From the NCBI GenBank assembly GCA_038049695.1, contig CP142456.1, positions 45,674,001-45,738,000 on the forward strand: a stretch of DNA of 64,000 bases, read 5' to 3'. The notes beneath the pieces were generated by a model that made no database searches, was not told the origin of the DNA, and saw nothing but the letters and a program-made list of their open reading frames with translations. A program made the position numbers and the translations under genes. This document shows, piece by piece, positions 4,690 through 59,905 of this stretch (its first letter is position 1; every line of letters begins with the position of its first letter). Source of the stretch: Cinnamomum chago (lineage: Eukaryota; Streptophyta; Magnoliopsida; Laurales; Lauraceae).

Positions 4690-5070
4690 CAGTGGGTGTT
4701 CCCGCACCTGGCGGTCAGCCTGCGGTCACCTTGCGGCTAGCCGCCTGGTGACTGGCGGCTAACCGCCAGCTAGCCGAAATGTCACGGTGGCTTTTCCAGA
4801 GAGCACACTTCTCCTCCTCAAAACTCAGTCAACTCCACGGTTGGCCAGCGGCTAACCGCCGAACACATCGGCGGCTAACCGCCAGCTAACCGCACTTGGC
4901 GGTCAGCTTTCCAGTAAGCTGCATTTCTGCAGCCCAGCCGCGGTCAGCTGTGCGGTCAGCCAGCGGCTAGCCGCCTGCCCCAGCGGCGGCTAACCGCCAG
5001 GTAACCGAAATTCCCCAGATTTCGAAAAGCTCCCCGCTCGAACGAACTCTTCGGTTCGTTCGAGCGTTGA
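4690..5070 (+). repeat. Palindrome cluster, GCGGCTAGCCGC type
   Basis: About six copies of GCGGCTARCCGC or close variants near 4726, 4761, 4847, 4870, 4957 and 4985, interspersed with GCGGTCAGC words. The cluster ends in a second dyad, GCTCGAACGAA...TTCGTTCGAGC (5035-5065). It is strikingly GC-rich compared with the surrounding AT-rich LTR. Copies C and D of related LTRs hold unrelated palindromes at the comparable place. Confidence 0.8.
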
Positions 5071-5499
5071 GCTTTGTCGATCAAAGGAGATTCACTAAGC
5101 ATTGTATGAGGCCATTCGAGAAAGAAACCATATCACAAGGATGTCATTCAAAGTTTTGAAAAGTGTAAAAGTGCATAAGGAGCCCGGAATGTCTTCAAAC
5201 TCAAGGAGTACCAAGTCATTTCAATAATCGACATACGGGACCCCTATTCACTTATATAGATCTTGAAATCAATATTTTCCCGAAATTGTTATAGTTCATT
5301 GCTTCACCTCTTTTCCCGAGATTTGCATTACATGACTTGTTTTCCCGAAAGCATTGGAGTTACTCTAGTAACAGTTACTTGTCCCGAAGTGCATTGCACC
5401 ATATGATATGTTAGTGTGCCCTTGAGCACCCCCGTCTTGCCCGTTTGATTTTGTATTCATACTTGATTTACTTGCATTGTCTCGATTGGATTTGACCTA

Positions 5500-5785
5500 T
5501 GAGTCGGCACCACTAAGCTTGGATCCCGCTACCCGGTTATTACCGTGGTCCCGTCCCGATACCCTGTTATTACCGTGGTCTTGTCCCGATACCGCAGATT
5601 GCTACTGTGGTCCCCGATGCCCGGCTCGCTACCGTGGTCCCGTATAGTATATGTATATGCATTCATGAGATCCCCTGTTTCTCCTCACCTCGAGTGACTG
5701 AGATCAGGGCCTAGTATATGTATATGTATTGATATGAGATCCCCTGTTTCTCCTCACCTCGAGTGACTGAGATCAGGGCCTAGTT
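5500..5785 (+). repeat. Two tandem-repeat blocks in LTR A
   Basis: The first block (about 5520-5645) has four units of about 40 bp built on CCCGRTACCC...TTACCGTGGTCCC. The second (about 5646-5785) is two nearly identical copies of about 70 bp containing GAGATCCCCTGTTTCTCC and CTCGAGTGACTGAGATC. Related but shorter versions occur in reverse near 13560-13700 and 58780-58850. Confidence 0.75.
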
Positions 5786-5989
5786 ATTGCTCTATCGCTT
5801 TAGTGATAGTGGACTTAGCTTCGTGTGGTTGCCATCTTGCCAGTTTTCGATTCCTTGGATACCCGACATGTTTTATATTGCTTTTATGTTTTCTGATAAA
5901 TGATTCGTTTCCTTTATGAAAGTTGTTATTTAAACAAGTGTTAATATTCTCCAATGTAAATTCAGTTATTATTATATTGCCTTCTGTTC

Positions 5990-6420
5990 TTTGTACCCGC
6001 ACATGTTTTAAATAAATGCCGGTTGGGCGAATACCCATGCTCTTACATATGTTTCACACGATCAATGATTTTACTTGATTTGTACGATTGCCCAAGTTTT
6101 AAATGGATACCCGTATTATTAAATATCTGATTTGCTAAATATCCCTGCCTTGAAATATGTTTTAAATGAACCTTAGTTCGCCAGATTTCTTGGTTACACA
6201 TTTGTTTTAAATGAACGTTTGTTTGTCAAACTTCTATACTTACACATGTTTCAGACGAACACCCGATGTCAAATACCTATGCTTTTATAGATGATGTAAA
6301 TGAACATATGCTTTATTAGATCTTCCTGTTTTAACCATGTTTGAAAAGAATACATGTTTTATCCGAGATTCCTGAGTTTTCACCCGTTTAATTATATGCA
6401 GCATTTTGAGCAAATAGTAT
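5990..6420 (+). repeat. Degenerate 50-65 bp array in LTR A
   Basis: Irregular tandem units share CATGTTTTAAATGAA and a following ACCCG or CCCGAT word. The same array in reverse is at about 13060-13380, 30820-30995 and 57940-58490, so it is a conserved part of the G LTR. Confidence 0.65.
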
Positions 6421-7140
6421 GATTTATCATTTGTATTATTATTCGCTATATTGTGTTCTTTTCATCCACCTGCCAGACCGTCGTGTCTGACCCACTACTT
6501 TTGGTACTCAGGTTCAGATTTCTTCGCCCCGAGTTGAGTGTTTTTGTTGGCTGTGGAGCCATGCCTTGCAGGTTGTTTTGTCGGCTATGTCATGTAGACA
6601 TTGAGCTTGACATCGGAGCTACGTCACATTGGGTAGTAGTTTATAGCTTATTGTTGTATGGCTTTTGTTAGCCTTTTCCTTGGGATTCTTAATTAATGTA
6701 CATTGATAATTGTAACTTGAACATATTTGGGAATGTAATATCCTGTTACCGTCAGCTCTGTATTTTATTGTGACGGGTTACTGCAGTCTGAGATGATTCT
6801 TGATATGATAGCTATGTGCTAAAGGTTGAGTGCGACGCGGAATCCGATGGCCACGGACTTCGGGTCGCAACGCCACAAATGCTTCCGCAAAATATTCAGA
6901 ATGTGTTGGAATGTGTTGTCTTCACACACGCGGATCCTGGGAGAAGTAAAATACAATTATTCCTTAATCCCATCTCCCGCCCCCGAGGTTTCGGTTCGGG
7001 GGTGTGACAAGGAATTAGAAAGTTTCTACTTCTATTTGAAGTGGGACTTCTAATAGTAGTAATAGTAATCTACTAATTAGTGTGGAAGTGAGACTTCTAA
7101 TTCAATTAGTAAGAGAGGTAGAGAGGGGATTGTTTTAGGG

Positions 7141-7149
7141 CTATAAATA
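7141..7149 (+). promoter_or_regulatory. Copia1 5' LTR TATA box
   Basis: CTATAAATA in the 5' LTR, matched by CTATAAATA at 33522-33530 in the 3' LTR. It sits downstream of the LTR body in the position expected for the U3 promoter. Confidence 0.7.
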
Positions 7150-7661
7150 AGGGTTGCATCCCCTTGGACGTTTTTACACATTGATTCACACCCAAGGCCC
7201 GTTTGTGTAAGTGTTGCACAATTCTATTTCTCCTCTTCTCTCTTCTCTAGTTCTCTTCTAGTTTCTTGTAGTTTCTAGTAGGGTTTTCTCTTGGAGATCT
7301 CACCCATCTTCTCGAGAAAAGAGATTCTGATTAGAGGGTCATAGCGTGGAAGATCAATAGGTCTTGGAGATTCTTGTTTGATACGTGAAAGAGTTTCATC
7401 ATCAAAGAAAGACGCAACTTCTCCATTAGAGCACAACCGAGCTCCTAAGGTATAATCTACTTCCTTGCATGTTGTAGATTTTTATGGATGCTTGTTGGCT
7501 GCTGTACTATCTTCTAGATAGGTTTATTTACTGATCATGATGGCTGAGATTGAGGACATGGATCCTGGATTGGGTTTGATAGCCCTCTGGATACTTGATC
7601 CCTGAGTCAAGTGGGTCAAAAGTTTTGAAAACCTATCCACGAGGCCCACCTATTTCCAACA

Positions 7662-7676: not shown

Positions 7677-9432
7677 ATACCTCATCTCTAATCATGTTAG
7701 ATCAGTAAACTTGTTCTAATCTTTGCATGAGATGCGAAGAGGATAGAGCAAGAGCTATGTACGGATCAATTTTTGATGGATTTTCTTTGTTTATTAGTGA
7801 ATCTATGTTTGGATAGTGACAAAAGGATTTAATAATGATGGAAGGATGGTAGGATGCCATTGAGAGCCTTCAAAAGTGTTTTGGAGGTATTTGTACTCGA
7901 ATTGAGAAAATCCAATTTTCTGCCTTCGTCAAGCGGGTTGACCTGGCCCCGTGCTCAGTCGACCGGGTGCCTGTAGGGTCGGTCGACCGAGCCCTCTGGC
8001 CGCTCGACCCCTGCCGGGGGACACCCCCGAACCCTCTTTACGAAGTGCTTGTTTTTAAAAGGTTGGCAACATTTGGCATCTTATTTTTCCATTGTGGTTT
8101 GGTAACCTGGTTTTGTGAGATGCTTTGTTATATGAGATACTAACTTGCAGGTGATAATGTCCTCTCCATGTGGCCCACAAGACTTTTACTTTCTTTTTAT
8201 GGTTATTGGTTTATTTGAGGCTAAGTGTAGGTCATCATGGTTTCCTTGGGTTCCCGTGAAAGGGCAAGGCATGGTGAATTTCCCTATAGCCCTTTTATTT
8301 CCATGTTTAGATTGCCATGTAAGTCTCATAATAGGGACATAGGAATTTATGTAATTTTTCAAAAAATTGTAAATTCTGGAGATGTCCAAGACGAAGAAGG
8401 AAAGTGAAGATGGACTCCTAATCAAAGAGTTTGAAGACTACCAAAAGGATCTTAGAGATGCCCAAAGAGTTTGAGGAATCCCTAAGTTTTGGATAGTCTA
8501 GAAGTCCAAGAAGTCTATTCCGCATGGGCCATGTGGAGGAGATGACTAGTTTCTAATTTTAGCACTTTTTATTTATGGATGAATGCTTAATTTAGATAGT
8601 ATCCAAATCTGATCCAAGCATAGCAATTACCAAAATTGGTCAAATCAAATTAATTTTTGGAAAGAGTTCTAATTAGAGTTGGTGGGCCCATGAGATGGAT
8701 CCATTGGTAACACTAATTTAAGAAACTGGACTTTTCATAAAATAACTTGACTTGGAACCAATCATTGGACATATCATGAGATGATTTAATGTCTATATAT
8801 GTGGGCCCAATATACCTAAAAGGAAATCCTCAATTCTAAAATATTAAGTGGGAGCGGGGCATATAAATTTAGAAAGCCCCATGGTTTTCCACTATAGGTC
8901 CATTGTAAGGAAAGTATTAGCCTCGTGCCATCTTGAGAATGACCGTTCCCCACGGAGGGCTTTTACTTGTCTGGTTACTAGATATGGATCTCCTATGGAT
9001 AGTGTTGGTGAGACGAGGCGGGGGCCCACTCCCCAAGGAGGAGCTGCTCGTAACGGTTGTCATCCAATGCTGGTTGGTGGGCCCCACTTAACTAAAATAA
9101 TGATGTAGTATCCCCAAGGATTTACCTCATGTATTTTAGAAACCAAAGCTAATTGGGAGTCATTCATTATTTGGTATGAGATACCTAGATAATAATGAAT
9201 GAAGGGGATCATGGATAGTTAGTCTTAATCCTAGTTTTGACCAACTTTGATCCGTACCAATCTAGGTGGAATTAACACTCCCCAAGGAGGCATACCCCGG
9301 GGATTAGGATTCCGATGTATTCTACATTTAGTGGTTATGAGGATTCCCACATAAATTTGGCAGAATACTAAACCTTAATGTCATTTAAATTCATTAATTA
9401 AATGTATGGTTATGTGCTACAGTATTTCAAGC
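7677..9432 (+). other. Copia1 5' leader, non-coding
   Basis: About 1.75 kb between the primer site and gag, the same size as the leader of Copia2. No gene is visible. It contains a GC-rich palindrome cluster at about 7925-8020 and repeated CCCCAAGGAGG words near 9031 and 9280. Short open frames here have no recognisable motif. Confidence 0.65.
7925..8020 (+). repeat. Palindrome cluster, GGTCGACC type, in copia leader
   Basis: GTTGACC, AGTCGACCGGG, GGTCGGTCGACCGAGCC and GCTCGACCCC occur within about 90 bp of GC-rich DNA. This is the motif found in the S-family LTRs, but the flanking sequence is not S-family and the location is a copia leader. Confidence 0.7.
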
Positions 9433-13059: not shown

Positions 13060-13380
13060 TGATCAAATGTTGCATATAATTAAAATGGGTGGAAAGATCA
13101 TGTATATCTGACAAATCATGTATTCATGTAAAACGGGTGTAAAACATGGATATCAAACAAATCATGTATTCATTTAAAGCATGAGTAAAACATGGAGATC
13201 TAACAAAACATGTGTTCATTTACAACATCTGTAAAAGCATGGATATTGGACAAAACGGGTGTTCCTTTAAAACATGTGTGAACAAAGAGATCTGGCAAAA
13301 CAAGTGTCCATTTGAAACATATGTAAAAGAACGGATGTTCGACAAATCGGGTATTCATTTAAAGCATATGAGTGTAACAA
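13060..13380 (-). repeat. Degenerate 50-65 bp array in G1 3' LTR
   Basis: Reverse version of the array in LTR A. Units share ATTCATTTAAAACATG-like words followed by an ATC(T)GACAAA word. Confidence 0.6.
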
Positions 13381-14314: not shown

Positions 14315-14480
14315 GCCAGTCGACAGGCCCAGGGGTCCCGGTCTACCGGGAACACTGCAGGCCGTCAGGGCCAAAGTGCTCCAACGGTCAGAAATTTGAC
14401 CGTTGTGTGATCCCGGTTGACCGAGACCTGTTTGCAGGTCGACCGAGGACTAGCCATTGGGCACTTTTTGCTATAAATAT
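14315..14480 (+). promoter_or_regulatory. E1 LTR palindrome cluster and TATA box
   Basis: AGTCGACAGG (14318), CCCGGTCTACCGGG (14337-14350), CGGTTGACCGAG (14414) and GGTCGACCGAGG (14437) stand directly upstream of CTATAAATAT at 14471-14480. A separate weaker dyad, CAACGGTCA...TGACCGTTG, lies between them. The spacing to TATA suggests an upstream promoter element or a hairpin in U3. Confidence 0.75.
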
Positions 14481-16134: not shown

Positions 16135-16219
16135 TCGTGCTCTATCTTTTAGGATCAAGTGTTTGGAACTCTTGATTAGGTGTAAAAACCTAGAGTTTAA
16201 ACCCTAGAGTTGTCCTTGC

Positions 16220-19760: not shown

Positions 19761-19764
19761 ATTT

Positions 19765-20192: not shown

Positions 20193-20692
20193 TGTTAGGG
20201 ATTTTGTATTTGCAATTTGATTGATGCATTTGCACTTTAGCATCATTTGATATTTCACACATGCATTGATTTAAAATATCTTGAAATCTTATTTTATACA
20301 TACATAGCTTTTAAGATTTGGAAAAGTTTTTGTTTTATGCATGTTTTGGTTCTAAACTTGGATGCATTAGTTTTAGAACCCAAACTCTTTTGAAAACCTA
20401 ATTCTTTGTGCATTATGTTTGGAAAATCATGTTGAGAATTTAGGTTTGAGCCTTGCATACATTCTTCACAAAAAGAATAATTTTTGTATGCATTTTCATT
20501 TGAAAAGAGTTTTGTCAAATCAAGCTAGCCTTTGGTTTTAATCTTTTGAATCATTTTAGGCTTTGGGTGTTTCATGTTTTTAAACATCTTAGAATGTCTT
20601 AAAACATGTATTCTAACTTGGTTTAATGGCCCAAAAAATTCCCAACCAAAATTACTTTAGAAAAATACATTTTTGGGAAAACAGGACCTTTA

Positions 20693-20849
20693 GTGGCGGA
20701 AAAACCACTTTTAGCGGCGGTTTCTGTGTCCGCCGCTAAAAGCAGTTTTTCAAACGGTCATTTTTTTGCCCGTTGTGTGATCCCGGTCGACCGAGACCTG
20801 TTCCTAGGTCGACCGAGGACTAGCCGTTGGATACTTTTTGGCTATAAAG
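20693..20849 (+). promoter_or_regulatory. E1a LTR palindromes (mixed type) and TATA box
   Basis: The upstream part carries TTTTAGCGGCGG...CCGCCGCTAAAA, an inverted repeat with a spacer of about 10 bp (20707-20745). Other S LTRs have GGTCGACC-type palindromes at this place. The downstream part keeps CGGTCGACCGAG (20783) and GGTCGACCGAGG (20807), followed by CTATAAAG at 20842. Confidence 0.78.
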
Positions 20850-22825: not shown

Positions 22826-23499
22826 AGTGGAAATCCGGTGGGGTGTTGGTTCACAAGCCGGTAGTGGATGTAGGCATTGAGGCTGAACCACTATAAATCC
22901 TTGTGTGATGGTGATTGCTTTGTGGTGATTCTTTTGTTAGCTTCCGCATCTTGAATGATTAATCATCACATGTGACTAGTTTGTTTTAAAGAAGTTAAAA
23001 TTGGTTATAATTGGTCATAAATGAATCTCACCCTATTCACCCCCCCTCTAGGGTTCGGATCCCCAGGACTTTCACTTCAGTGTTTTTGGGAATCTTAATT
23101 CATAAATCATGAATATTCGGGAGTGCATATCAAAATTCAGGAACAATGGGAATACAATTGAACTTTTGACATTTTGGGAAAAATATCGGGTTCAAGATTT
23201 GTTTAAGGTGAATAGGGGTCCCGTATGTCGATTTAATAACAACTTGGTACTCCTTGAGTTTGGGAGACATACCGGGCTCCTTATACAACTCAGTGATTTC
23301 AAAATCTCAAATGAATCTTCATATTGTGGGTTCTTTCTCAAACAGTTTCATACCTTGTCTATTAGGTCTCCCAGACACATAGCGGGTTCTTAATGGACCT
23401 CTCAAAACATTTAAACACCTCCTTATTACACCAAACATAGCCCCATATGAACAGTGTCCATCGCTCGAGCGGACCAGGGGACATAGCCCCATACTTTTT

Positions 23500-26096
23500 C
23501 CCCATACTTTTGATATGGATCGTATCGGTTTCCGTGTGATTGTGATCTTGATTTCATTTGAATGATTTTCCTATGTGTTACAACTTTCGTCTTAAGCTCA
23601 TTCATGTTTGAAGCCCAAAAACCCATGTTTTAGCCCAATGAGGGTAAAATTGTCTTTTATGCACAAATCTGGACACAATTTTCGAGATCTCAAAACCATG
23701 TAAAAAATATACTTTTTGGAAATTAGATATTTTGAGGATCGTTTTATCCTTCTTCGTCGAAGTCATTCGAGGCTCACAAGATCATGTTTTCGTCGTTTCA
23801 AAGTTCAAGTCATTTGGGGCCCATTGTCATCACTTAAACCCCATCTCCCTCTCTTTTCATTCATTTCCCCCAAATCTCTGCAACTTCTTGACCTAGGGCT
23901 GAAAACCCTTTTTTCCCTTCCACTTCATTTCTCTTGCATGTTCTAGCTATAGATCTCCAAAGAAGATTCCAAGGCCATCATCTTCTTCCTCTCATCTCAA
24001 GCTTCCTATTGATATCTTCTTCTTGAAAGCTAAAGTTGGGAAAGCTCTCCATTTGTTTTCATTCCTTTTGTTTGGGCATTTCTAGGTAAGAGCTTCAACC
24101 CATATTTTTCATAGAGTTATTTTGGTTCCCTAAGATCTTTTTTTCATTTGAAAACCCTTTTTGTGAAAATGGGTTTCTTATTTTCAAGATTGTGTGGAGT
24201 TTGAGTGGATTTCCCTTGGGTTTCTTGTAGTGTTGGAATAGCTTGAGTGAAGTGCTTGAAGAGGAGTGTTTAGCATTGGTCAAGGCAAGTAATCTCTATA
24301 GGAAATGATGCATGTGTATTTTGATTACATTGTTATTTTAGAAATTATGCATATAAATTGTTTACAAGCTTCATGATTATGTTTTCATTGGATTTGGATG
24401 CTTGAAATGGTGATAAATGAACCCTTGGTGAGCATGAAGGCTCGAGGGATTGTATGTGAGTTAAGGATGAGAAGAAGGAGAAGAATGTAGTGAAGGTTGT
24501 ATAAGAGAAAGGCATTTTCTGCACTCAGCGAGCACATGCAGAAGCTTGTCCGCTCGAGTGACCCTTGGATCCGCTCGAGCGACCAAGCCTCTGTTTGTTC
24601 CGAGCGCAGACAGAGAGCTGTTCGTTCGAGCGCACCTTATATCCGCTCGAGAGAACTGTCTCGCTCGAGCGAAGTGTCAACACCTTACAAGGTCCGCTCG
24701 AGCGAACCTGCCAGATTCAGGAAGAAGAATTATTTCATTTCTGTATTTTCTTGAAGGTTGAAAAAACTAGACTATGTTAAGGGTTTTGACTTGACATTGT
24801 GTAAATGGAACTTCAAAATGCAACCCAACTTCGGGGACACCAATTCTTATATATATTCCAACATTTGGGGTCCCAATTACACAAAGGTCAATTAGCAGCC
24901 TTAACACATGCTTATCAGATTTCGTGTTTGAATTCCGTTTTGGTACGATAAGAACCATCGTGTACTAGTTTTGGATTTCAAGTATAAGCTTGTTTTGAAG
25001 AATTGTTTCAAGAAAAATGGGATCACTTCCTAAGCGTGTTATGCATATTAATTATGCCTTTGCTAGTCGTGTTCATCGTGTTTTGATAAGTGATTTCCCC
25101 CTTTTTATCTCGACATGTTTTGATAGTGTTTCGCATGTTTTGTGCATTCATGAATTAAGTAAACACCACTGAGCTTGGACTGCCCTTTCAGTTTGATCCA
25201 CTGTCTGGGGGTCTTTAAACATGTGAACTGTCTGTAGACTGGTCGTGTATTGATTACACATCGTGCGTGTCCGGTTCCGCAGCCGGATTTCCCGTATTTA
25301 TGGGAAATCGTGTCGTGATTATATTATGTATATCGTGCTTGTCGTGCGTGCTTGCTCTTTTCATTATATAAATGATAGAGAAAGGATGGACTCTTTGTGG
25401 ATGATGACAATTCATGATATATTATGTACTCATGCTAGTTTGTTTTAGTATCCTAACTTTATTATGTATTCTCGAAATGTATCTCAGCTATTGTAGTATT
25501 TCAAATCAAGGATTTGCCTACATGTTTTCTTAAAACGTTTATTGGTTCATGCTTGCACCTAAATTGATTACCTGCCAAACCGTTGTGTTTGACCCTTGTT
25601 TATTGGTGCCCAGGTGCAGGAGATGTTGCCTTTGAGGAGGAGCGTCGGGAGGAGGCTCTTGAGCCACCCCCAGTGAGAGAGTGGCAGCCCGACGATGTCA
25701 TCTAGACGTCGGGCGGTTTCTTGAGTTACGCAACATTTTGTCATGGGGTTTCTTATATTATTTTGAGAAGTGTATTGGTCTCTGTTGGCCTCTTATGGGA
25801 TGTAACTAAAACTTAACTTACTTTGTGTAGTCTTATAACTTGAATTATGTTGGGAATGCCAAGTTAGCTTCTTTCTTTCATACTATGTCTTGTTAGTAAT
25901 TGTTATAGCACTTAAAGATTTATTGGTGCTTATCATGATGTGTTTTGCTACACGCTTCCGCAAATTTGATCGTGTGAGTCAGATTCCGCGTGTCTTTAGG
26001 AATCCTCACCGCGGGAACCTATGGGAAACAATAAACATAATCAATGAAATCAACAACACCGTCGCGGGCTCGGGGTTCCGTTCCGTGGTCGCGACA
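23500..26096 (+). mobile_element. D: truncated G-related LTR joined into G1 3' LTR
   Basis: Forward sequence resembling LTR A in order: a TACAACTTTCGT block (23578), a CGAGATCTCAAAACCATG block (23679), a palindrome cluster, a GACGATGTCATCTAGACGTC block (25692), TTCCGC (25955) and the end GGTTCCGT...GTCGCGACA (26096). The start expected by comparison with A (about 500 bp) is absent and no TSD is visible on the left. D therefore joined G1 with loss of both its own start and part of G1. It is much diverged from A and C. Left boundary uncertain by about 100 bp. Confidence 0.6.
24535..24715 (+). repeat. Palindrome cluster, CCGCTCGAGCGA type
   Basis: Six copies of CGCTCGAGYGA or close variants (near 24550, 24570, 24623, 24643, 24661, 24693) in about 170 bp. 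One further copy, TCGCTCGAGCGGA, is in the G1 LTR at 23461. Confidence 0.85.
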
Positions 26097-27074
26097 GGGT
26101 GTGATTGACGCAAAAGGGAAAAAATGTTTCTCATAAAATCTAGTTTTCAAAAAGTATACTTTTGTCATGGTTCTGGGATCTAGAAATTTGGGTCAAGATT
26201 CAATGTGAAAAGACCGATTTTGCCCCTAGGGCAAGAAAAACTGATTTTTGGAGCTTCGAATGGGCACGGAGTGAACACGAAAGTTGTAGGGAACGACGAG
26301 AATCGTCAAACAAAGCAGAAATGGGAATTTTTGGGAATCACGAAGAACCTCTGTAAGATTATCACACAAAACAAGTAGGACCCTACGGTCATTGTCTAGG
26401 TTCACTGGCTCTCAAAACTCCCCAAAACTAGTGAAAAACCATTCTAGCTCACAAACTCAACCAAACAAACAGTAATTCCACTTAGAGAAACTAATCCACA
26501 AATAAAACAACACTAATCCAGGAAATTAGGGGCCGGGATCTCACATCCTCCCCCCCTTAGAACATTTGGTCCTCCAAATGAATTAAACAAAGCCAACAAC
26601 AAGTGGGGACATTAATCCCACACTTCGAAAGCAAAACCATAAACGACTGCTCCAATTCGGTCCTCTCAGAAGCACCTGAACTCGCTTTCATCCTCGCTGT
26701 TGAATGTTAGGGATTTTGTATTTGCAATTTGATGCATGCATTAACATTTGAGCATCATTTGATTCACACACTTGCATTGATTTAGAAAATCTTGAAATCT
26801 TGATTTTCACATGCATTGGTTTTTAGACTTGTAGAAATCTTGATTTATGCATGTTTTGGTTTTAGATATTGGATGCATTTAAATTTGAAAAGAGTTTTAT
26901 CAAATCAAGCAAGCCATTGGATTTAAAGTTTCGAATCATTTTAGGCTTTTTGTGTTTCATGTTTTTAAACATCTTAGTTTGATTTAAAACATGTTTCCAA
27001 GCTTGATTTAATGGCCCAAAAATCCCCTCCTAGAAAAACCTTCAAATATGCAATTTTTGGGAATTTTTGGTCCC

Positions 27075-27270
27075 AGGGGGTCGACCTGCTGTGTGGCTGG
27101 TCGACCGGCCCAGGGGACCCTGTCGACCGGCCACACAGCAGGTCGACCGGGTAAAGTGCCGTTGCCCTTTTTCAAACTGTCAAATTTATGACCGTTGTGA
27201 AGGCCAGGTCGACCGGGGATAGGGCAGGTCGACCGGGGGCACGCAGGAACCCACTTTTTGGGTATAAATT
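27075..27270 (+). promoter_or_regulatory. F LTR palindrome cluster and TATA box
   Basis: Six GTCGACC words (near 27079, 27101, 27121, 27142, 27206, 27227), several extended to GGTCGACCGG. They stand directly upstream of GTATAAATT at 27262. The inverted-repeat pair CTGCTGTGTGGC...GCCACACAGCAG spans two of the words (27087-27142). Confidence 0.82.
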
Positions 27271-32352: not shown

Positions 32353-32356
32353 GGCC

Positions 32357-35304: not shown

Positions 35305-35460
35305 AGTCCCCGGTCGACCTAGGCTCAATGGTCATAAATCTGACCGTTTGAAAAAGACCTCCAACAGCTCTTTCCCGGTTGACCTACAATGTGGTCGTTC
35401 GACCGAGTCCATGGGCTCGGTCGACCAAGCTCACTACAAGTCGATCCGGGCCCAGGGACC
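35305..35460 (-). promoter_or_regulatory. S1 LTR palindrome cluster
   Basis: CGGTCGACCTAG (35310), CCGGTTGACC, GTTCGACCGAG, CTCGGTCGACCAAG (35416) and AGTCGATCCGG, all more diverged than in E2. A degenerate TATA (ATTTTATACT, reverse) lies at about 35275. Confidence 0.7.
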
Positions 35461-40122: not shown

Positions 40123-41128
40123 ACAAAAAAAAATGTCACTTTGCCTCTTCATACCCTTTCAAACATTAAGAAACCGAATGAAGTTCCATCCAACCACAAC
40201 AGGCAATGCTACCTCAAGCATCAAATCTTGTCAAAATCATCTAGAAACTTCAAGATCCTTCAAAAGAGTCATAAGGAGAGTATACATGAAGTTTTGGGCC
40301 ATTTCGACATCATTTGGCCTAACATCACTCTTCCAACAGCCGAACAGGAGCTCCCGGCGGCGATGAATCTAGAGACTTTGTTTCACAAAATAGAGCATAT
40401 AGTTGGGCTCAAAATGCCACTAAAAAGTACTGTAGCAAATTCCAGGCCATTCTGACACTGTTTGGCCCCAAAAGCAAAGAGTCGCATGTGGTTTGGGAAT
40501 TTAACACGCTAGGTTAGAATGTGAAATGGTTTGGATTAATTGTAATTGGTGGCCTTAGATGGGTTGAATTACTAGCTAGCCTGATTTGTGATGAATGGGA
40601 AGGATGGAGGCACTTTTTCTGCATGTTTGGCCATGAAATGGTCTGAGGAGGAAGTGGCAGAAAGCCCATTTTCGGGGCTGCAGTATGCTATCCGATCGAT
40701 CAGTCGCACTATTCGATCGATCAGACAAGGGACATGCCTCAGTTACTAAGGTCGTCCACTGTTCGATCGATCGGGCACTATCGGACAGAGGAAACCTTGG
40801 ATAACTGGGAGGTGCCCAGGTCTAATTGATTGGGCCCTTTGTTTGATCGATCAAACAGCGTCACTAACTGGGAGTAATTCAGTGTTGTCCGATCGATCAG
40901 AGAGTAATTGCTTCCCTGGACATAATGACTTCGAACCTTTATAACTTTTAATTCGTCTGTTGGATTTCTACATGTTACATATTGATGGAAAGCCCTTGAG
41001 ATGTAGAATCCAATGGTTCTGGTTTTACTACGATCGGAGATCGAGAAGTGATGGAAAAACCCAGATAAATGATCCATCTCATGTTTATTTGGAAATGAGA
41101 CTGTTAACCTAGGTTTGAGACTTAGGTA
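40123..41128 (+). other. Unassigned LTR-like stretch with GATCGATC palindromes
   Basis: No gene is visible. It continues at 50046 once the S solo LTR E3 is removed. The palindrome cluster at 40690-40915 and the LTR-3'-like sequence around 51100-51200 suggest one large, diverged gypsy-like LTR, but no boundaries can be fixed. Confidence 0.4.
40690..40915 (+). repeat. Palindrome cluster, GATCGATC type
   Basis: CCGATCGATCAG (40691), TTCGATCGATCAGA (40712), TTCGATCGATCGGG (40755), TTGATCGATCAAA (40843) and CCGATCGATCAG (40890). Confidence 0.82.
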
Positions 41129-41629
41129 CTGGGTGAAAGTCCTGGATCCTAACCCTAGAGGGGGGGGGGGTGAATAGGGTGAGGTACAATATGTGACCAA
41201 TTATGACAAATTTTAACTTCTTAACATAAACTAGTGACAAGTGATGATAAACAAACAAAATACGGAAGCTAATAAAACAATCACCACAAGCAAACACCAC
41301 TACACAAAGATTTATAGTGGTTCGGCCTCAATGCCTACATCCACTACCGGCTTGTGATCCAATCACTGAAAGTCCGGGGATCCGAACCCTAGAGGGGGGG
41401 GGGGTGAATAGGGTGAGCTTCATTTATGACCAATTTTAATCAATTTTAACTTCTTTAAAACGAACTAGTCACAAGTGATGATTACACATAAAATGCGGAA
41501 GCTTAATAACAACAATCACCACAAAGCAATCACCATCACACAAGGATTTATAGTGGTTCCGCCTCAATGCCTACATCCACTACCGGCTTGTGAACCAACT
41601 CCCCACCGGATTTCCACTATTTATGCTTT

Positions 41630-41755
41630 TCAATAGGCTAAGCAATAACCTTTACAATATGCTTTTCAAGGCTTAGCAATAACCTTTACAATGATATTTT
41701 TCAAGGCTTAACATCAACCTCTACACTATGCTTTTCTTAGGCTAAGCAATAACCT
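41630..41755 (-). repeat. S LTR U5 minisatellite (E2 3' LTR)
   Basis: Four reverse units of AGGCTTAGCAATAACCTTT type. Confidence 0.83.
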
Positions 41756-43040
41756 CTTCAACCACAAGGTTGGTTATCTCACTAAGATAGTGTCTATAAT
41801 ACACTTGATGGAGATTCAATTAAGCTCATTACATTGCCTCTTAATTAGGCGGATATGGAAGTGTAAAACTAACTCACACAAACACTTAATGAATGCAAAG
41901 ATGTATGCTCATGATGTGTGTGTGTGATGTCCTCAATCATTTTGAAAATGAAAGCTCATAAATGTATGCCTAAGGCTTTTGAAAGTTTTAGCTCAAAAAC
42001 ATTTATGATTGAGGAAATAATGCAAGTCACATGTTAAAAGTAACAACTTGTTAATGATGTCAAAGATACACAAGTTGTATGAAATGAATTAGCTCTAAAC
42101 ATGTGATGCATAGGGATGTCAATCAACTCAACAATGTAGCTCAAAACATAAAAATAGATTTGATTGAAATTAGGGGACAAATCATATGTAATTATAAATA
42201 CAACTTGAAAAAGATATACCTATCAAAGTAAGGCAAGTTGTGAAACTTTAAAACAATAATACACATATGATTTGTAAAGATGTTGAATCCACAACATAAG
42301 ATATATTTTGAAAGAGATTTTCTTATGATGAAAAACAACACCCAAAGATTCAACCAAGTATATGAATCATGTTACATATAATTTCAAAGATTATTCCATT
42401 AACATGATCTACTTAGATTTCCCAAATAAAGTACTACTTGGATTGAATCAATGGTGATGCATCCAAAACAATAGATCAATTCAAAATATAAAACATGCTA
42501 AGGATACAACACATCATAGGTTAACATGCTACTAAAGATTTATCAAAGATAAAACAAAACATGAAAACATATGATTTGTAAAGAAGTTGAATCCAAAACA
42601 TAAGATAGTTTTGAAAGTGATTTTCTTATGATGGAAAACAACAACCATAGATTCAACCAAGTATAGGAATCATGTTACATATAATTTCAAAGGTTCTTTC
42701 ATTAACATGATCTACTTAGATTTACCAAAGATAAAGTACTACTTGGATTGAATCAATGGTGATGTATCCAAAACAATAAATCAATTCAAAACATAAAACA
42801 TGTTAAGGATACAACACAACATAGTTTATCATGCTACAAATGATTTACCAAAAAAAAAACAAAGCATGAAAACATATGATTAAGGAAAGTAGAGCCTACT
42901 TGGTGATTTAACTTCATTAATCCAAGCTTTAGCTTTCCTAATGATCTCCTTCATCCCTTAGTTCATTTCCCTTTGATATGCCTCAAAACCCCTCAAGGAG
43001 GGCCTTAAAATTCCCAACTTTTGGCAAAGGAAAGAACTCA

Positions 43041-43215
43041 TATTTATAGCAAAAAGTGCCCAACGGCTAGTCCTCGGTCAACCTGCAAACAGGTCTCGGT
43101 CGACCGAGATCACACAGCGGTCAGAAAAATGACCGTTGGTGCATCAGGGCCACTTTCCGCCTGCAGTTTTCCCGGTCGACCGGGACCCCTGGGCCGGTCT
43201 ACCGGCCACACTGCT
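43041..43215 (-). promoter_or_regulatory. E2 3' LTR palindromes and TATA box
   Basis: Reverse TATA TATTTATAGC at 43041-43050. Just above are CGGTCAACCTG (43075), TCGGTCGACCGAGA (43097), CCCGGTCGACCGGG (43171) and GGCCGGTCTACCGGCC (43193). Confidence 0.8.
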
Positions 43216-43586
43216 GGGGCCAAAAATTCCAACTTTGCATTTTTCAAAGATTTTCTTTGTGGAACTTTTTGGGCCACTAAACCAAGCTTGAATACATGAA
43301 TTAAATCATTCTAAGATGGTTTAAAAATATGAAACATAAAAAGCCTAAAATGATTCAAAAGTTTAAAACCAAAGGCTAGCTTGATTTCTAAAACTCTTTT
43401 AAAAAACAAATGCATCCAAGTTTTAAAAGCAAATCATGCATAAATTGATACTTTTACAAATCTTAAAAGCAATGCATGAATAAAATAAGATTTCAAGATT
43501 TCTTAAATTAATGCATATGTGTGTGAATCAAATGATGCTAGAATGATTATGCATCCATCAAATTGCAATCTACAAAAACCCTAACA

Positions 43587-44040
43587 ATCTCCCCCTTTGC
43601 AATTTGATGGCAACTTACTCATCATTGAAATTACACAGTTAATCTTCAGCTCCCCCTAAGCTGGACAAGTCTTGAAATCTTCTTGGATGCTCCTCCTCTT
43701 AGCTTGGGCTCTTGGGCTCTTTTCTTCAATCTTCTTGATGCTTGGAGCTTGATCATTCTTCAAGCTTTCTTTTCATCTTCCTCTCTATGGCCAAGCATCT
43801 TCTTTAGCTCCAAGCTTTCTTTCTTCTATTTGCTCTCCCCCTTTGACCATGCCTCTCTCTCCCTTTGGCAAGGTATGCATTCTCTCCCCTTGTAGAAGAT
43901 CATACACAACTCTCCTTAGGAAGCTTGGACATTCTCTTCACCTTTAGAGAACTTGAAAGCTCTCTCCCCCTTTGAAGAGTAGGAGATCTTTGAGTACTTG
44001 AACTTTCTCTCCCCCTTTGCCATTAAATTGCAAAGGTACC
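43587..44040 (-). repeat. E2 multiple polypurine tracts (reverse)
   Basis: Repeated CTCCCCCTTTG or CTCCCCTT words at about 43590, 43640, 43835, 43860, 43885, 43965 and 44010. The one touching the LTR (ATCTCCCCCTTTG, 43587) is the expected primer. Confidence 0.83.
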
Positions 44041-46612
44041 TACACACATGAAATAAGGAAAATACCTTTAGTAGCACCTGTTAACAAATGAAATCGAAAA
44101 TGAAATACATAACAGGCTATCATGTATGGAAGTTATCTCTAAGGGCTCAAAGGCAATCCAATGGTCAATTTGATCAAAACTAATACTTCCTATGAAGGTT
44201 TACACTCCCCTTCAATCCATTCTCTTCTTTTGTCAAACTTTTGACAAGATATAACTATTTGGTTCAAGAAGTAGATGGTTTAACCAAATGAGGGTCAACT
44301 TCAAGGAAAGGATTAGATTCATTTAACTATAAGGCTCAATATGATCAAATTACCAAAAGAAAGCAAGGTCTAATGAGAAAAACAATCATGGATACCAATT
44401 GGAAAAATAAAGAATACCAATTGAGATTTAGGGATAAGTCTATTAAACACAATCACTCTAAAATGGATTTAAAGATATACCTATTAGGAAAAATCCAAAT
44501 TAGAGCTATCCATGATGAAATGGGGTTTATTAATCATAGCATCAAATAATCTAACTATGGAAAGCATATGCTATGAAGGTTTTGAAAACATTTCATTCAA
44601 TCAATAAATATGACTATTAAAGTGCAAGATGAGTGAAATGAAATTCAAACATGAAGCCAACCTCAACTAATAACCAACCAATATTATGAACACATAAACA
44701 TGGTGGTCATGAGATATACCTATATGAGCAAGAGAGGTGGCAAACATGAACATTATGATGCTAATGGTGTGTGACATGGAACAAATATATAACTATCAAG
44801 CTCAATCCAATGTACACAATGTCTATCACATTCACAAGAAATCAAATCAAACGAAAATTTTACCAATTGAATTTGACAATATGATAAAGAGCAAGGATGT
44901 GACAAACACAAAATTTCATCAAGCATCATAAATGGATATTCATCACTTTTAAAGATATGACTAATGTGCATAGTGATGAACAAGAGCAATGCAAAAGGAT
45001 ATAACTTTGTAATGCATGCAATTTCTAAAGTGACTAAATCATATGAATTCAACATCTAAGTTATCCATCAAACACATAGAAATATGAGGAATGGATTTCA
45101 AAGAGTTTCATATGATCAAGATCACTACTATGAAGTTGAAACATGTATAAGAATGACATCATTTAGAGAATACACATGAATCAACATCATAACCATCCAA
45201 ATAGAAATGACTATAAGGCATAGAGGATGGATTTGAGTTCTAGTATGGTTTCTACAAATATAATAAATATCACAACCATACATAGAACAATTTGACATTT
45301 GCATAGAGAGGATCAATCAACACTCAAGATCTAACTCATACCATATCATCAATAAAAAATATAACTATGTAATCACAAGAAGGTATGAAGTTAAAGGTAT
45401 CAATCTATCATGTAACATCTCCACTCTTAGCAAATGTACTAAGCTTACAATGCAATGGAAAATGGATATGAGGTTTAAACCAAATGAACTTAGCACATAA
45501 AATCACATATGTACATAAAAAGCTCAAAAACAAGATTTTACTATAAAGCACATAAACAATCATCAAATTGAATTAATGAGAATATACCAAGTTAGGCACA
45601 AACATGCAAATCAATGAAACCATATCCAACCAAGCAATGTAAGACATCAAAATCAATTTGCATAAAGAATGTAACTAAATGAGCAAAGATGCAAATTGTT
45701 TGTAAAAACTATTTCCTTCCAAAAGATATAATCATAATTAAGCACAAGGAAATAAATTCAAGGAAAATGCTTCTATAAATACAACCAATCAAGCTTAGAA
45801 CATTTTCCAAAGTTTCTCAAATCACTTCAACATTTGAAATTCGAACAAGGAATCATTTAGAATTAAGAGCAAGTGAATTTGAAAAACAAGAAGTGTACAA
45901 TTATAAATTGAACACATATTTTCCATACCAAGAGATATAACTTTGAAAACTCAATGGAAAACTAAAATTGCTTCAAATCATTTGATTTACAAAAAGGATC
46001 TAACTATGACAAACATCAAATGATTTTCCAACATCAATTGATCATGAAAAATCTAGCTATGAAAGCATTTGTAATCACAATCAATTGATCATGAATAGAT
46101 AAGCACTACAAGAGATATAACTATATGAACAAAATGCAAATCCATCATGAAAGTATTGCAATCAAATGATTTTGAAAACCAAGAGATATAACTTAAAAGT
46201 TCATGAAGACAAAATCAAATGATCACAAAGAAACATTGCATTTTAAAAGATGTGACTTAAAAAAACAAAATGTAAATGTACTATGACCAACAAATAGATA
46301 TAACTAAAAAGATTAGGTTGGTCTAGGGGGATCAAGGCCTAAAGGTTAGTCTAAATGAGTACCAATGAAGATTCACCAAAGGTCTTGATAAGGATGTCCT
46401 TGAGCGATCACTTTGAGGACTCACCAACTCTTAAAGATATAACTTGAAAAAGTCTTAGAGTGGTGCAAAGAAACTAGGGGAAAATCCATTTTCAAACATA
46501 GTGGAAATCTTTAAAAAGATATGCAATAAATCACAACACTAGGGTTCAAATCTAGCAAGGATCAACTCCGGGTTGTTAAACCCTAAAATGGAGTAACCCG
46601 CTCTGATACCAA
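44041..46612 (-). other. E2 non-coding interior and primer site
   Basis: AT-rich body homologous to 17700-19760 of E1a. The primer site, CTCTGATACCAATT in reverse, is at about 46600-46612, directly next to the LTR end. Sequence near 46320-46400 corresponds to the 3' end of gag in E1a but has no open frame. Confidence 0.75.
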
Positions 46613-46879
46613 TTGAAAGTCTCGGGATCCGAACCCTAGAGGGGGGGGGGGGTGAATAGGGTGAGCTTCATTTATGACCAATTTTAATCAATTTTAACTT
46701 CTTTAAAACAAACTAGTCACAAGTGATGATTACACATAAAATGCGGAAGCTTAATAACAACAATCACCACAAAGCAATCACCATCACACAAGGATTTATA
46801 GTGGTTCCGCCTCAATGCCTACATCCACTACCGGCTTGTGAACCAACTCCCCACCGGATTTCCACTATTTATGCTTTTC

Positions 46880-47005
46880 AATAGGCTAAGCAATAACCTT
46901 TACAATATGCTTTTCAAGGTTTAGCAATAACCTTTACAATGATGTTTTTCAAGGCTTAACATCAACCTCTACACTATGCTTTTCTTAGGCTAAGCAATAA
47001 CCTCT
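46880..47005 (-). repeat. S LTR U5 minisatellite (E2 5' LTR)
   Basis: Four reverse units of AGGCTAAGCAATAACCT type, matching 41630-41755 almost base for base. Confidence 0.83.
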
Positions 47006-47982
47006 TCAACCACAAGGTTGGTTATCTCACTAAGATAGTGTCTATAATACACTTGATGGAGATTCAATTAAGCTCATTACATTGCCTCTTAATTAGGCGG
47101 ATATGGAAGTGTAAAACTAACTCACACAAACACTTAATGAATGCAAAGATGTATGCTCATGATGTGTGTGTGATGTCCTCAATCATTTTGAAAATGAAAG
47201 CTCATAAATGTATGCCTAAGGCTTTTGAAAGTTTTAGCTCAAAAACATTTATGATTGAAGAAATAATGCAAGTCACATGTTAAAAGTAACAACTTGTTAA
47301 TGATGTCAAAGATACACAAGTTGTATGAAATGAATTAGCTCTAAACATGTGATGCATAGGGATGTCAATCAACTCAACAATGTAGCTCAAAACATAAAAA
47401 TAGATTTGATTGAAATTAGGAGACAAATCATATGTAATTATAAATACAACTTGAAAAAGATATACCTATCAAAGTAAGGCAAGTTGTGAAACTTTAAAAC
47501 AATAATACACATATGATTTGTAAAGATGTTGAATCCACAACATAAGATATATTTTGAAAGAGATTTTCTTATGATGAAAAACAACACCCAAAGATTCAAC
47601 CAAGTATATGAATAATGTTATATATAATTTCAAAGGTTCTTTCATTAACATGATCTACTTAGATTTACCAAAGATAAAGTACTACTTGGATTGAATCAAT
47701 GGTGATGTATCCAAAACAATAAATCAATTCAAAACATAAAACATGTTAAGGATACAACACAACATAGTTTATCATGCTACAAATGATTTACCAAAAAAAA
47801 AACAAAGCATGAAAACATATGATTAAGGAAAGTAGAGCCTACTGGTGATTTAACTTCATTAATCCAAGCTTTAGCTTTCCTAATGATCCCCTTCATCCCT
47901 TAGTTCATTTCCCTTTGATATGCCTCAAAACCCCTCAAGGAGGGCCTTAAAATTCCCAACTTTTGGCAAATGAAAGAACTCA

Positions 47983-48155
47983 TATTTATAGCAAAAAGTG
48001 CCCAACGGCTAGTCCTCGGTCAACCTGCAAACAGGTCTCGGTCGACCGAGATCACACAGCGGTCAGAAAAATGACCGTTGGTGCATCAGGGCCACTTTCT
48101 GCCTGCAGTGTTCCCGGTCGACCGGGACCCCTGGGCCGGTCGACCGGCCACACTG
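47983..48155 (-). promoter_or_regulatory. E2 5' LTR palindromes and TATA box
   Basis: Reverse TATA at 47983-47992. The three strongest palindromes are TCGGTCGACCGAGA (48038), CCCGGTCGACCGGG (48113) and GCCGGTCGACCGGC (48135). The last reads GTCTACC in the 3' LTR, a single-base difference between the two LTRs. Confidence 0.8.
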
Positions 48156-48554
48156 CTGGGGCCAAAAATTCCAACTTTGCATTTTTCAAAGATTTTCGTT
48201 GTGGAACTTTTTGGGCCACTAAACCAAGCTTGAATACATGAATTAAATCATTCTAAGATGGTTTAAAAACATGAAACATAAAAAGCCTAAAATGATTCAA
48301 AAGTTTAAAACCAAAGGCTAGCTTGATTTCTAAAACTCTTTTCAAAAACAAATGCATCCAAGTTTTAAAAGCAAATCATGCATAAATTGATACTTTTACA
48401 AATCTTAAAAGCAATGCATGAATAAAACAAGATTTCAAGATTTCTTAAATTAATGCATATGTGTGTGAATCAAATGATGCTAGAATGATTATGCATCCAT
48501 CAAATTGCAATATACAAAAACCCTAACAATCACCCCACCAGATTTCCACTATCT

Positions 48555-49490: not shown

Positions 49491-49670
49491 ATTTTATAGC
49501 CAAAAAATGCCCAACAGTTAGTCCCCAGTCGACCTGGACCCTTACCCGGTCGACCTGGTACACAACGGTCATAAAATTGACCATTTTACAAGAGCCCCAA
49601 CAGCTCTTTCCCGGTCGATCGGGTCCCCTGGGCCAGTCGACCGGCCACACTGCGGGTCGACCCGGGCCTG
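49491..49670 (-). promoter_or_regulatory. E3 LTR palindromes and TATA-like box
   Basis: Reverse TATA-like ATTTTATAGC at 49491-49500. Above it are CAGTCGACCTGG, CGGTCGACCTGG (49547), CCGGTCGATCGGG, CAGTCGACCGGCC and GGGTCGACCCGGG. Confidence 0.75.
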
Positions 49671-51957: not shown

Positions 51958-51962
51958 CTTGC

Positions 51963-53987: not shown

Positions 53988-53990
53988 GCA

Positions 53991-56900: not shown

Positions 56901-57332
56901 TAAAGTAGCAGCTCCCACTGCAACAGCCCAGATCTTTGCTCCATTTCCAACTCTAAGGTCAAACTCCCCTTTCTCAAGCTTTTTCATTATCTGAAACCCC
57001 TGCAATGAATTGCAGATATGATTAGTGGCTCCAGAGTCTACTATCCAAGAATCAGTAGAATCAACCACATGACAGGTTTCAATGTAGTAGGAAAGAGATA
57101 TACCTTTCTTATCTGAGCCTAGGAGCTTGGGACAATCTTTCTTCCAGTGACCTTTGAGGCCGCACTTGAAGCATTTCCCTTTGGGCTTTTCACCTGTACC
57201 TTTATCCTTCTTCCCAGCATTGCCCTTTTTCTGTCCTTTTCCCTTACCTTGCTTCTTCTTGAACTTTTTCCCTTTCGGGTTCAGTTTAGAGGAAAACTGG
57301 GAAAAGTGAAGTTGGCCTTTAGGCTTCATGAT
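53991..57332 (-). pseudogene. Copia2 Gag end, protease, integrase, RT, RNase H
   Basis: One frame of over 1100 codons with a single stop, TAG at 54447-54449. In order it shows a Lys-rich Gag end, CCHC knuckle CFKCGLKGHWKKDC, protease DSGATNH, integrase HHCC region (WHLRLGH...CESC), HTDVCG, FTDDYSR and PQQNGVAERRN. RT follows with QMDVKTAFLNG and LYVDD, then RNase H with TDSDF, EAEYVAASEAAKEAVW and LADPFTKT. All catalytic motifs that I can recognise are present. The stop lies at a position occupied by Gln in most copia relatives. The frame begins in the TSD of LTR C; the upstream part of gag is at 61278-61888. Confidence 0.93.
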
Positions 57333-57939
57333 TGTCACGCCCCCAAACCGAAACCTCGGGGGCGGGAAATGGGATTAAGCATAAATGTATTTTACTTCTC
57401 CCAAGATCCGCGTGTGTGAAGACAACACATTCTGAATATTTTGCGGAAGCATTTGTGGAAAGCGACCCGAAGTCCGTGGCCATCGGATTCCGCGTCGCAC
57501 TCAACCTTTAGCACATAGCTATTATATCAAGAATCATATCAGACTGGAGTAACCATCACAATAAATTACAGAGCTGACGGTAACAGGATATTACATTCCC
57601 AAATATGTTCAAGTTACAATTATCAATGTACATTAATTAAGAATCCCTGGAAAAGGCTAATAAAAGCCATACAACAATAAGCTATAAACTACTACCCAAA
57701 TGTGACGTAGCTCCGATGTCAGGCTCAATGTCTACATGACATAGCCGACAAAACAACCTGCAAGGCATGGCTCCAAAGCCAACAAAACACTCAACTCGGG
57801 GCGAAGAAATCTGAACCTGAGTACCAAAAGTAGTGGGTCAGACACAACGGTCTGGCAGGTGGATGAAAAGATCACAAATATACTAAAGAATAAAACATAT
57901 AATAAATCATGCTAATCGATCAAATGCTACATATAATTA

Positions 57940-58490
57940 AACGGGTGCAAAAGTCGGAAATCTCGGGAAAGCCTGTATTCATTTCAAGCATGGGTGAAAC
58001 GTGAAGATCTAATAAAACATGTATTCATTTACATCATCTATAATCATAGATATTTGACAATCGGGTATTCGTCTAAAACATGTATAAATATAGTGGTTTG
58101 ACAAAACAAACGTTCATTTGAAACTTAAGTAAAACACAAGTATACAACAAATCAGGTATCCATAACAGTCTAGCAAAAACCAATGTCCATTTGAAAGATA
58201 TGTGAAACTACAGATATTTAACAAAACCGGTATAAACACAGTGATCTGGCAAAACAAGTGTCATTTGAAACATATTTCAAAGCATGGGCATTTAACAATT
58301 CGGGTATTCATTTAAAAACAAGTATAAACATAGGAATCTCACAAGTCAAATGTCATTTAAAACAAAGCACAGATATTTAACAATTCGGGTATTCCTTTAA
58401 AACATGTGTAATCATATAAATCTAGCAAAATCATTGATCGTTTGAAACATATGTAAAAGCATGGTTATTCACCCAACCGGCATTCATTTA
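57940..58490 (-). repeat. Degenerate 50-65 bp array in LTR C
   Basis: About nine irregular units with TCGGGTATTCATTTAAAACA-type words. This is the longest version of the array in the window. Confidence 0.7.
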
Positions 58491-59769
58491 AAACATGTGC
58501 GGGTACAAAGAATAGAAGACAATATAACAATAACTGAATTTACATTGGAGAATATTAACACTTGTTTAAATAACAACTTTCATAAAGGAAATGAATCATT
58601 TATTGGAAAGCAAGTAAGCAATATAAAACATGTCGGGTATCCAAGGAATCGGGAACTGGCAAGATGGCAATCACAAGAAGCTAAGTCCTCTATCACCGAA
58701 GTGACAAGAGTATAACGGGACGTTGGTCTCAGTCACACAAGGTGAGCAGACTCAACGTAAATCATATATACAATATAAATATACGGGAACGGGACCACGG
58801 TAGCGAACCGGGTATCGGGACGGGACCACGGTAATAACCGGGTATCGGGATCCAAACTGCAGCTGGCGGGACGGGAGAGGGATTTCCAAGTCGGTGGATC
58901 AAACCGACAAGGTATCCAAGCTTAGTGATGCTGACTCATAGGTCAAAACCAATCGAGACATATGTAAGTAAATCAAGTACAATAAATAAACGGGTAAAAC
59001 GGGGGTGCTCAAGGGCACACTGTCACTTCATATCGGGCAATACATTTCGGGACACTTAACTGTTACTAGTGTAACTTCAATGCTTTCGGGAAAACAAGTC
59101 ATGTAATGCAAATCTCGGGAAAAGAGGTGAAACAATGAACTATAACAATTTCGGGAAAAGTATTAATTTCAAGATCTATTTAAGTGAATAGGGGTCCCGT
59201 ATGTCGATTATAATCATTACTTGGTACTCCTTGAGTTTGAAGACATTCCGGGCTCCTTATGCACTTTTACTATTTCCAAAACTTAAAATGAGCTTATGGG
59301 TAGTACTAGATGTTACAATAGCAAGAATCAAGATTATATACGGTCCATCCTAGGCATGACATTAATCCGGAAACATCGAGCAACCTATTCAGTCACCGAA
59401 AGGAATAGAATTCACAATAACCAAGGAAAGGCTCGTGTTTAGATATAAAGAAGATATCGCGTCGTTCCATCCCGTTCAAGATTGAAATGGATTGAACTTC
59501 GATGCCACCGAACTAACCGTGAGGCGTGTTGGCTCAAGACATTCTCACACTTGGTCCAAACAGTCCAAAAAGGGTAGCCAGAGTCCCACCTAGGACCAAG
59601 AATTAGTGTCTAAATCAACACCATTCTTTTCTTTTAGTTCCCTAGTCTTAGAGACCTTAGATTAGGGTACAATTGGTCTTAACACTAAGGTATATACATC
59701 TAGGACTCATAGAAGGCCCAAAGGTTTCCAAAAAAACACAATATCAAATTTCACTGGACTCAAACTGAG

Positions 59770-59905
59770 TCCTCCGATCGATCGGTCGAAATTTTTGTAC
59801 CAGAAATGTACAGGGTCCGATCGATCGGCCCAAAAAGCCTTACTGTTAAAAGACAGGCCGATCGATCGGCCTGTAGGTCCGATCGATCGGACCTGGGCGC
59901 AGTGC
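59770..59905 (-). repeat. Palindrome cluster, CCGATCGATCGG type
   Basis: Four exact CCGATCGATCGG words (near 59775, 59818, 59860, 59880), the third extended to GGCCGATCGATCGGCC. This replaces the GCGGCTAGCCGC cluster of LTR A. Confidence 0.85.

Follow-up and report, generated by a model that had tools for sequence, protein, structure and literature searches.

Arrays of GC-rich palindromic boxes in Sirevirus-like and other LTR retrotransposons of a 64-kb window from Cinnamomum chago

The DNA analysed here comprises 64,000 nucleotides of Cinnamomum chago contig CP142456.1 (GCA_038049695.1, positions 45,674,001 to 45,738,000, forward strand), hereafter the window, and all results refer to this one 64-kb window. 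It has a GC content of 37% and a CpG observed/expected ratio of 0.46, is plant-like and is densely filled with nested long terminal repeat (LTR) elements. An element map built from self-comparison, junctions and Pfam (Table 1) includes Copia elements, a G family with LTRs of 3.9-4.0 kb and an S family represented by seven copies in which the cluster region is included. Twelve GC-rich palindrome clusters (A to E and seven in S copies) were found between positions 4690 and 59905, far beyond what was seen in shuffled DNA. The original prediction, made from the sequence alone, had listed at least ten such clusters, and the four palindromes that it named were all present (GGTCGACC 18 times, CCGATCGATCGG and CGCTCGAGCG 4 times each, and GCGGCTAGCCGC twice).

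As a chance control, the DNA was shuffled 60 times in blocks of 1 kb with dinucleotide content kept. There were 27 palindromes whose arms measure 5 or more and whose core has a GC of 50% or higher, compared with 9.0 +/- 2.8 in shuffled DNA (maximum 16), and 44 palindromic 8-mers of at least 75% GC were observed, compared with 16.3 +/- 4.1 (maximum 28). Groups of at least two such 8-mers within 150 bp numbered 10, compared with 0.5 (maximum 3). Both the palindromes and their clustering thus exceeded the dinucleotide-shuffled controls by which it had been proposed to judge them. When each interval was shuffled against itself, A, B, S14 and S49 (4 of 13 intervals) gave p>=0.05 in both palindrome tests. 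A folding test was stronger: on either strand, every one of the twelve clusters outscored 197 or more of its 200 dinucleotide-shuffled versions.

The box frame CG-N-TCGA-N'-CG occurred exactly at 21 sites, compared with 0.05 in 40 shuffles (maximum 1), and 20 of these sites lay within clusters. With at most one mismatch in the eight fixed letters, 45 sites were found against 2.9 expected; 43 were in clusters, and the other two were at 656 and in a lone box at 23462. Chance as the cause of the clusters was ruled out by these shuffle counts of palindromes and frame sites. With a symmetric variable pair, the frame covers three of the four box types, the letter N being G in S and B, C in cluster C, and A in D and E; five of the 21 exact sites (5035, 5057, 24623, 35396 and 49612) were asymmetric at N. 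The earlier observation that most palindromes are centred on TCGA could thus be sharpened to a longer frame, except in the A array, which has a CTAG centre and of which only the side hairpin fits.

Judged by the non-coding hallmarks given in PMC2829016 (Bousios et al. 2010), the S copies are Sirevirus. Such elements are expected to carry about four AGGGGGAG tracts, most of them no more than 0.5 kb from the 3' LTR; four were found at 19772-20182 (+) and four at 43597-44017 (-). The CAATTGGTATCAGAGC junction between LTR and primer-binding site (PBS) follows the 5' LTR of S2 at 46610 (-) and also occurs at 16120 (+), behind DNA that was not recognised as an S LTR. A putative C-rich integrase signal, TCACCCCCCC, was seen at five S LTR ends. 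CGG-CCG dyad boxes lie upstream of a TATA box in 7/7 copies, with 2-6 boxes per LTR compared with 3-14 per 3' LTR in Table 3 of that paper. S LTR pieces with both ends measured 1.76-2.2 kb, slightly above the published 0.54-1.68 kb, which is a range and not a definition. No pol open reading frame (ORF) that would carry a Sirevirus reverse transcriptase (RT) was found in the S copies of the window, S2 included.

At 16208-17758 (+), an S-type internal ORF encodes 517 amino acids; by eye it is rich in coiled coil and has a CCHC knuckle, it has no Pfam match, and it stands without pol. Two proteins of 521 and 504 amino acids aligned to it (77% and 65% identical); accordingly, it appears to be a complete gag-like protein from a non-autonomous lineage related to Sireviruses. 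The DNA at 15179-16118, upstream of the PBS at 16120, resembles S2 internal DNA instead of an S LTR, and the first S element therefore looks rearranged.

The S boxes CGGTCGACCG match the Vitis RM in Table 3 of PMC2829016 letter for letter; they are the RM boxes published for Sireviruses and were thus already known. RM boxes as described there are likewise palindromic, lie mostly in the upper LTR half, form CpG islands, and have a TATA box averaging 37 bp after the island. In S clusters, CpG observed/expected was 0.76-1.36, compared with 0.03-0.28 in the remainder of the same LTRs. The centre of the last box lies 31.5-32.5 bp upstream of TATA in 7/7 copies, or 3.0-3.1 helical turns, and that of the second box 52.5-54.5 bp upstream in 6/7 copies, or 5.0-5.2 turns.

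In PMC2829016, RM was called Sirevirus-specific and absent from a classic Copia set. What appears to be new here is that the same box style extends to the ~4-kb G LTRs, the 5' leader of a Copia element and an unassigned stretch. The RM core signature CGG-CCG is lacking in clusters C, D and E, whose cores are CGCTCGAGCG and CGATCGATCG. Cluster A consists mostly of near-palindromes (GGCGGCTAACCGCC and others), with two perfect copies, and its core equals the Citrus Sirevirus RM core CGGCTWRCCG (PMC2829016 Table 3).

The G elements failed the Sirevirus tests. Their junction is GTGATAGACTAGTATCAGAGC, not ATTGG before the PBS; none of the five window matches to the C-rich signal falls in G; and no AAGGGGGAG was found, with two GGGGGAGA at 29992 and 30065, near the 5' LTR. 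In a search for gypsy pol or gag domains, none of four ORF pieces from inside G3 matched Pfam, and assignment of the G family to Ty3/gypsy is unproven. Tandem repeats with a 46-bp unit, differing in copy number, occur in the 3' part of G LTRs (13099-13367 and 30821-30987). The G1 insertion, with its 5-bp target-site duplication (TSD), has an empty counterpart at ~33390 in the other Copia1 LTR copy.

The 2.7-kb stretch around cluster C aligns to G1/G2 only via an inverted 0.2-kb piece, so the host of this cluster is less certain and might be another nested element. In Copia1, the LTR/PBS junction reads CAATTGGTATCAGAGT (15 of 16); no box array was seen in Copia1 LTR sequence or on the Copia3 LTR side. 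Copia3 carries a 237-bp repeat at 51962 and 63764 (100% identical). An isolated 16-bp palindrome, ACTTCGGTACCGAAGT, lies at 38996-39011 inside the Copia2 pol piece. Of the five boxes counted in cluster D, one has an intact 10-bp core. Several of the changes in D look like CpG transitions from CCGATCGATCGG, so this cluster may be an old array of the E type. The D box at 40841-40856 reads GTTTGATCGATCAAAC.

Table 1 Palindrome clusters and retroelements mapped in the window
Feature	Position	Strand	Description
Cluster A	4690..5030	+	in G1; array of CGGCTAGCCG / CGGCTAACCG boxes
Cluster A side hairpin	5035..5066	+	CGCTCGAACG..CGTTCGAGCG, 14-bp stem
Cluster B	7930..8015	+	four CGGTCGACCG-type boxes; Copia1 5' leader, ~270 bp after PBS (7663)
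Cluster C	24540..24720		six CGCTCGAGCG-type boxes; 2.7-kb stretch between two G-alignable blocks, G3 3' LTR
Cluster D	40690..40902	+	CCGATCGATCGG-type array, mostly 1-2 changes away; unassigned stretch interrupted by solo LTR S3
Cluster E	59770..59900	-	in G2; four CCGATCGATCGG boxes
S14 array	14335..14450	+	S LTR 13937-15143 (truncated); TATA 14472
S20 array	20690..20820	+	two CGGTCGACCG-type boxes and unrelated hairpin; TATA 20843
S27 array	27070..27240	+	six boxes; S LTR 26705-28463; TATA 27263
S35 array	35305..35430	-	four boxes; TATA 35283
S43 array	43070..43205	-	3' LTR of element S2; TATA 43048
S48 array	48012..48150	-	5' LTR of S2; TATA 47990
S49 array	49520..49667	-	solo LTR S3; TATA 49498
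Lone CGCTCGAGCG box	23462..23471		not a cluster; near conserved block of G3 3' LTR
G1	2992..7009	+	solo LTR of G family, 4.0 kb; ends TGTGAGAACC..GTGTGACA; TSD AGGAA; in Copia1 LTR sequence
G2	57333..61277	-	solo LTR of G family; TSD ATGAT; inside Copia3 gag
G3	about 31493-12522	-	5' LTR internally deleted; 3' LTR interrupted by S DNA
S2	41367..48528	-	Sirevirus-like element; TSD ATCAC; four AGGGGGAG tracts; CAATTGGTATCAGAGC junction; inserted in solo LTR S3
S3	50040-48534 and 41366-41134		solo LTR; hosts S49 array
Copia1	9.8-12.6 kb and 31.5-32.2 kb		pol pieces (second by position and sequence); PBS 7663
Copia1 LTR sequence	within 1987-7661 and 32375-34042		outer limits not fixed
Copia2	38.8-40.1 kb		pol piece
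Copia3	57.4-54.0 kb; 62.0-61.2 kb	-	pol; gag

Adjacent boxes were often a similar distance apart. In B, C, D and E, 6 of 15 gaps measured 20-22 bp, compared with a null of 1.16, a number reached in 2 of 5000 placements. With S27 added, the count was 10/20 (0/5000 placements), and with all A boxes added to B-E it was 8/27 (null 2.37; 11/5000). The consulted parts of PMC2829016 contain no discussion of box spacing. The inner 8 bp were the most symmetric part of the boxes, at 38-44 of 44 sites; positions 5-8 were symmetric at 24-27 of 44 sites, mostly no better than in permutation.

Module replacement was seen in both the S and the G family. In S20, the hairpin TTTTAGCGGCGG..CCGCCGCTAAAA at 20700-20750 (a GCGGCGG hairpin) stands in place of the CGGTCGACCG boxes of other copies, and the flanks of the replaced part remain ~82% similar to S27. 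Likewise, G1 and G2 are 83% alike up to a ~700-bp module and 81-90% alike beyond it (72% in the first 0.5 kb); the module itself gave no BLAST match between them and its boxes differ. A similar pattern is described in the consulted part of PMC1838419 for the Tnt1 superfamily, in which the U3 control region diversifies and the remainder stays similar, although no dyad-box arrays are described there.

We tentatively favour, at somewhat less than even confidence, the explanation that the clusters are arrays of dyad sites for dimeric host DNA-binding proteins and serve as retrotransposon control modules. Protein dimers on DNA are preferred because of the spacing, the distance to TATA in S and the concentration of symmetry in the inner 8 bp. 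Putative dimeric proteins would occupy the dyad-symmetric boxes, and we infer that the factor is of host origin, binds the arrays and activates the elements. In S LTRs it would use the known RM boxes centred ~3 and ~5 helical turns upstream of TATA, with further boxes higher up. The box style in G LTRs, the Copia1 leader and D (a 10-bp palindrome bounded by CG, usually CG-N-TCGA-N'-CG, often 20-22 bp apart) may have arisen independently or through very short transfers, and the module is replaced as one unit while its flanks remain alike. The excess of the box frame over shuffles and the replaced G1/G2 module also count in favour of this explanation. The 20-22-bp spacing and the fixed TATA distance in 7/7 S copies lend some support to the earlier proposal of a common selected role such as protein binding.

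Several points weigh against this explanation. The spacing was noticed before testing and the 20-22 range was set afterwards, so that the tests are post hoc on the same data, and B, C, D and E were each non-significant when tested singly. Helical phase was weak in B-E (50.6 of a possible 93, peak 10.30 bp, p 0.040) and in B-E with S27 (62.7 of 129 at 10.45 bp, p 0.035). It was stronger when six intact-frame A boxes were added (88.5 of 165 at 10.50 bp, p 0.002), but including all thirteen A boxes moved the joint peak to 11.5 bp, where A alone peaks. The seven S copies are related, and S48 is not independent of S43 because both LTRs belong to S2. The higher identity of S boxes (88%, compared with 68% for spacers, in 14 pairs of six S copies with the S43-S48 pair and S20 left out) speaks for the explanation, but the comparison is biased because the boxes were picked by motif. 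Outside S, TATA boxes were unconvincing (173 bp for A, 74 for E and 38 for D). None was found within 400 bp downstream of B or C, whose role may therefore differ, and B lies downstream of the PBS. Finally, folding goes beyond that given by the boxes alone.

This last point speaks for a strong rival, in which structured RNA (a small-RNA source, packaging or dimerisation) is the reason why the arrays persist, whether through selection or through tolerance, and the DNA symmetry is a by-product; we regard it as possible but rather unlikely. An unguided folding scan (sliding 120-nt, lowest 2% of segments) returned 13 segments, of which 12 overlapped the twelve clusters and the remaining one was Copia1 coding sequence at 11721. 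Folding z of the clusters ranged from -2.5 to -11.5, and 27079-27148 in S27 folds as one long hairpin. When boxes were kept and spacers shuffled, at most 10 of 200 shuffles reached the real plus strand in 11 of the 12 clusters (48 in S20). When 18-mers were left intact, the results for 10 of the 12 clusters showed no remaining effect in E, a weak one in S35 and none on the minus strand of A; in both designs the place used for the fourth D box was off by 3 bases. Small-RNA hotspots are reported at maize Sirevirus palindromes in PMC5311732 and PMC10760457. These LTR palindromes likewise form a variable, strongly folding module, differ in sequence (CACCGGACNNNGTCCGGTG) and include one palindrome common to two transposable element types, Copia and Helitron, the nearest precedent found for arrays beyond Sirevirus LTR elements. 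The earlier suggestion of hairpin RNA thus fits the folding results, whereas covariation speaks against it. RNAalifold on six S copies gave an unfavourable covariation term of +2.91, with double changes in 3 of 32 pairs, and at 10 of 11 positions the covariation between paired sites was no greater than in permutation. The exception was k=8 (p 0.033, uncorrected), beyond which no compensatory change that would prove long hairpins was found. Moreover, folding does not predict the fixed TATA distance.

Another explanation, which we consider improbable, is that template switching or recombination carried box arrays from one family to another, with Sireviruses bearing other RM boxes as one conceivable source. 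It would account for the sharing of CGGTCGACCG by B and S, of CCGATCGATCGG by D and E, and of the A core with Citrus Sireviruses, and module replacement was indeed seen in G1/G2 and S20/S27. However, shared cores can be coincidence because few palindromic box types are possible. With the boxes masked, no homology was detected in 25 pairs (A-E among themselves and against three of the seven S copies; the top z, 3.4, came from the pair of B and E). Module exchange, as originally proposed, thus found no support outside the boxes, although box-only transfers may have occurred. The same comparison led us to reject, at detectable similarity, captured S-LTR fragments as the source of the non-S clusters.

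Neutral minisatellite-like growth, in which short CG-rich units duplicate and decay without function, is very unlikely: short tandem rows (27201-27238 and 24644-24678), an internal duplication in A and similar between-box flanks (z 5.5 in A right, 3.6 in C left, 2.7 in E left and 2.7 in S49 right) point to it, but flanks show no relation in B (z 0.4 and 0.0) and a weak one in S27 (0.9 and 2.1), TATA distance is constant in S, and unrelated hosts have the same box style. A plain tandem repeat as the whole explanation was rejected on the tandem-row and flank-similarity evidence.

No report of such arrays in non-Sirevirus LTR elements was found in the literature searched, which mostly left subscription papers out of reach. 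At least one of three literal 10-mers occurs in 501 papers, with no plant-retrotransposon title among the 40 matches listed; PMC2829016, which contains CGGTCGACCG, does not appear in that list, so this search cannot show absence. The box pattern matched nine loci in viral contigs (GC 0.56-0.71, without a GGTATCAGAG match), which were judged unrelated. Sirevirus junction patterns gave no match in viral contigs and two bacterial records in genome contigs. No relatives of the Copia pol, the RT or the S gag-like ORF were found as independent plant DNA, and an Rfam search at gathering thresholds gave no match.

Overall, the original observation was confirmed, the clusters outside the S family not being due to chance, and its interpretation was partly supported. 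A bolder possibility, which we hold to be highly doubtful, is that unrelated retroelements of one plant share a control-box code, in which the CG-N-TCGA-N'-CG frame and two-turn spacing are fixed and the symmetric N pair (G, C or A) is the family letter. If so, a letter change together with a module swap would allow a family to switch host factor, or to evade small RNAs directed against another family, and would leave the architecture intact. The arrays outside S suggest that a feature described as private to Sireviruses is shared more widely. If the boxes recur in other retroelements with the same spacing, they would point to a common host factor or a common pressure on the control regions of plant retrotransposons, and a testable rule of box frame, spacing and TATA distance would replace an unexplained palindrome cluster.

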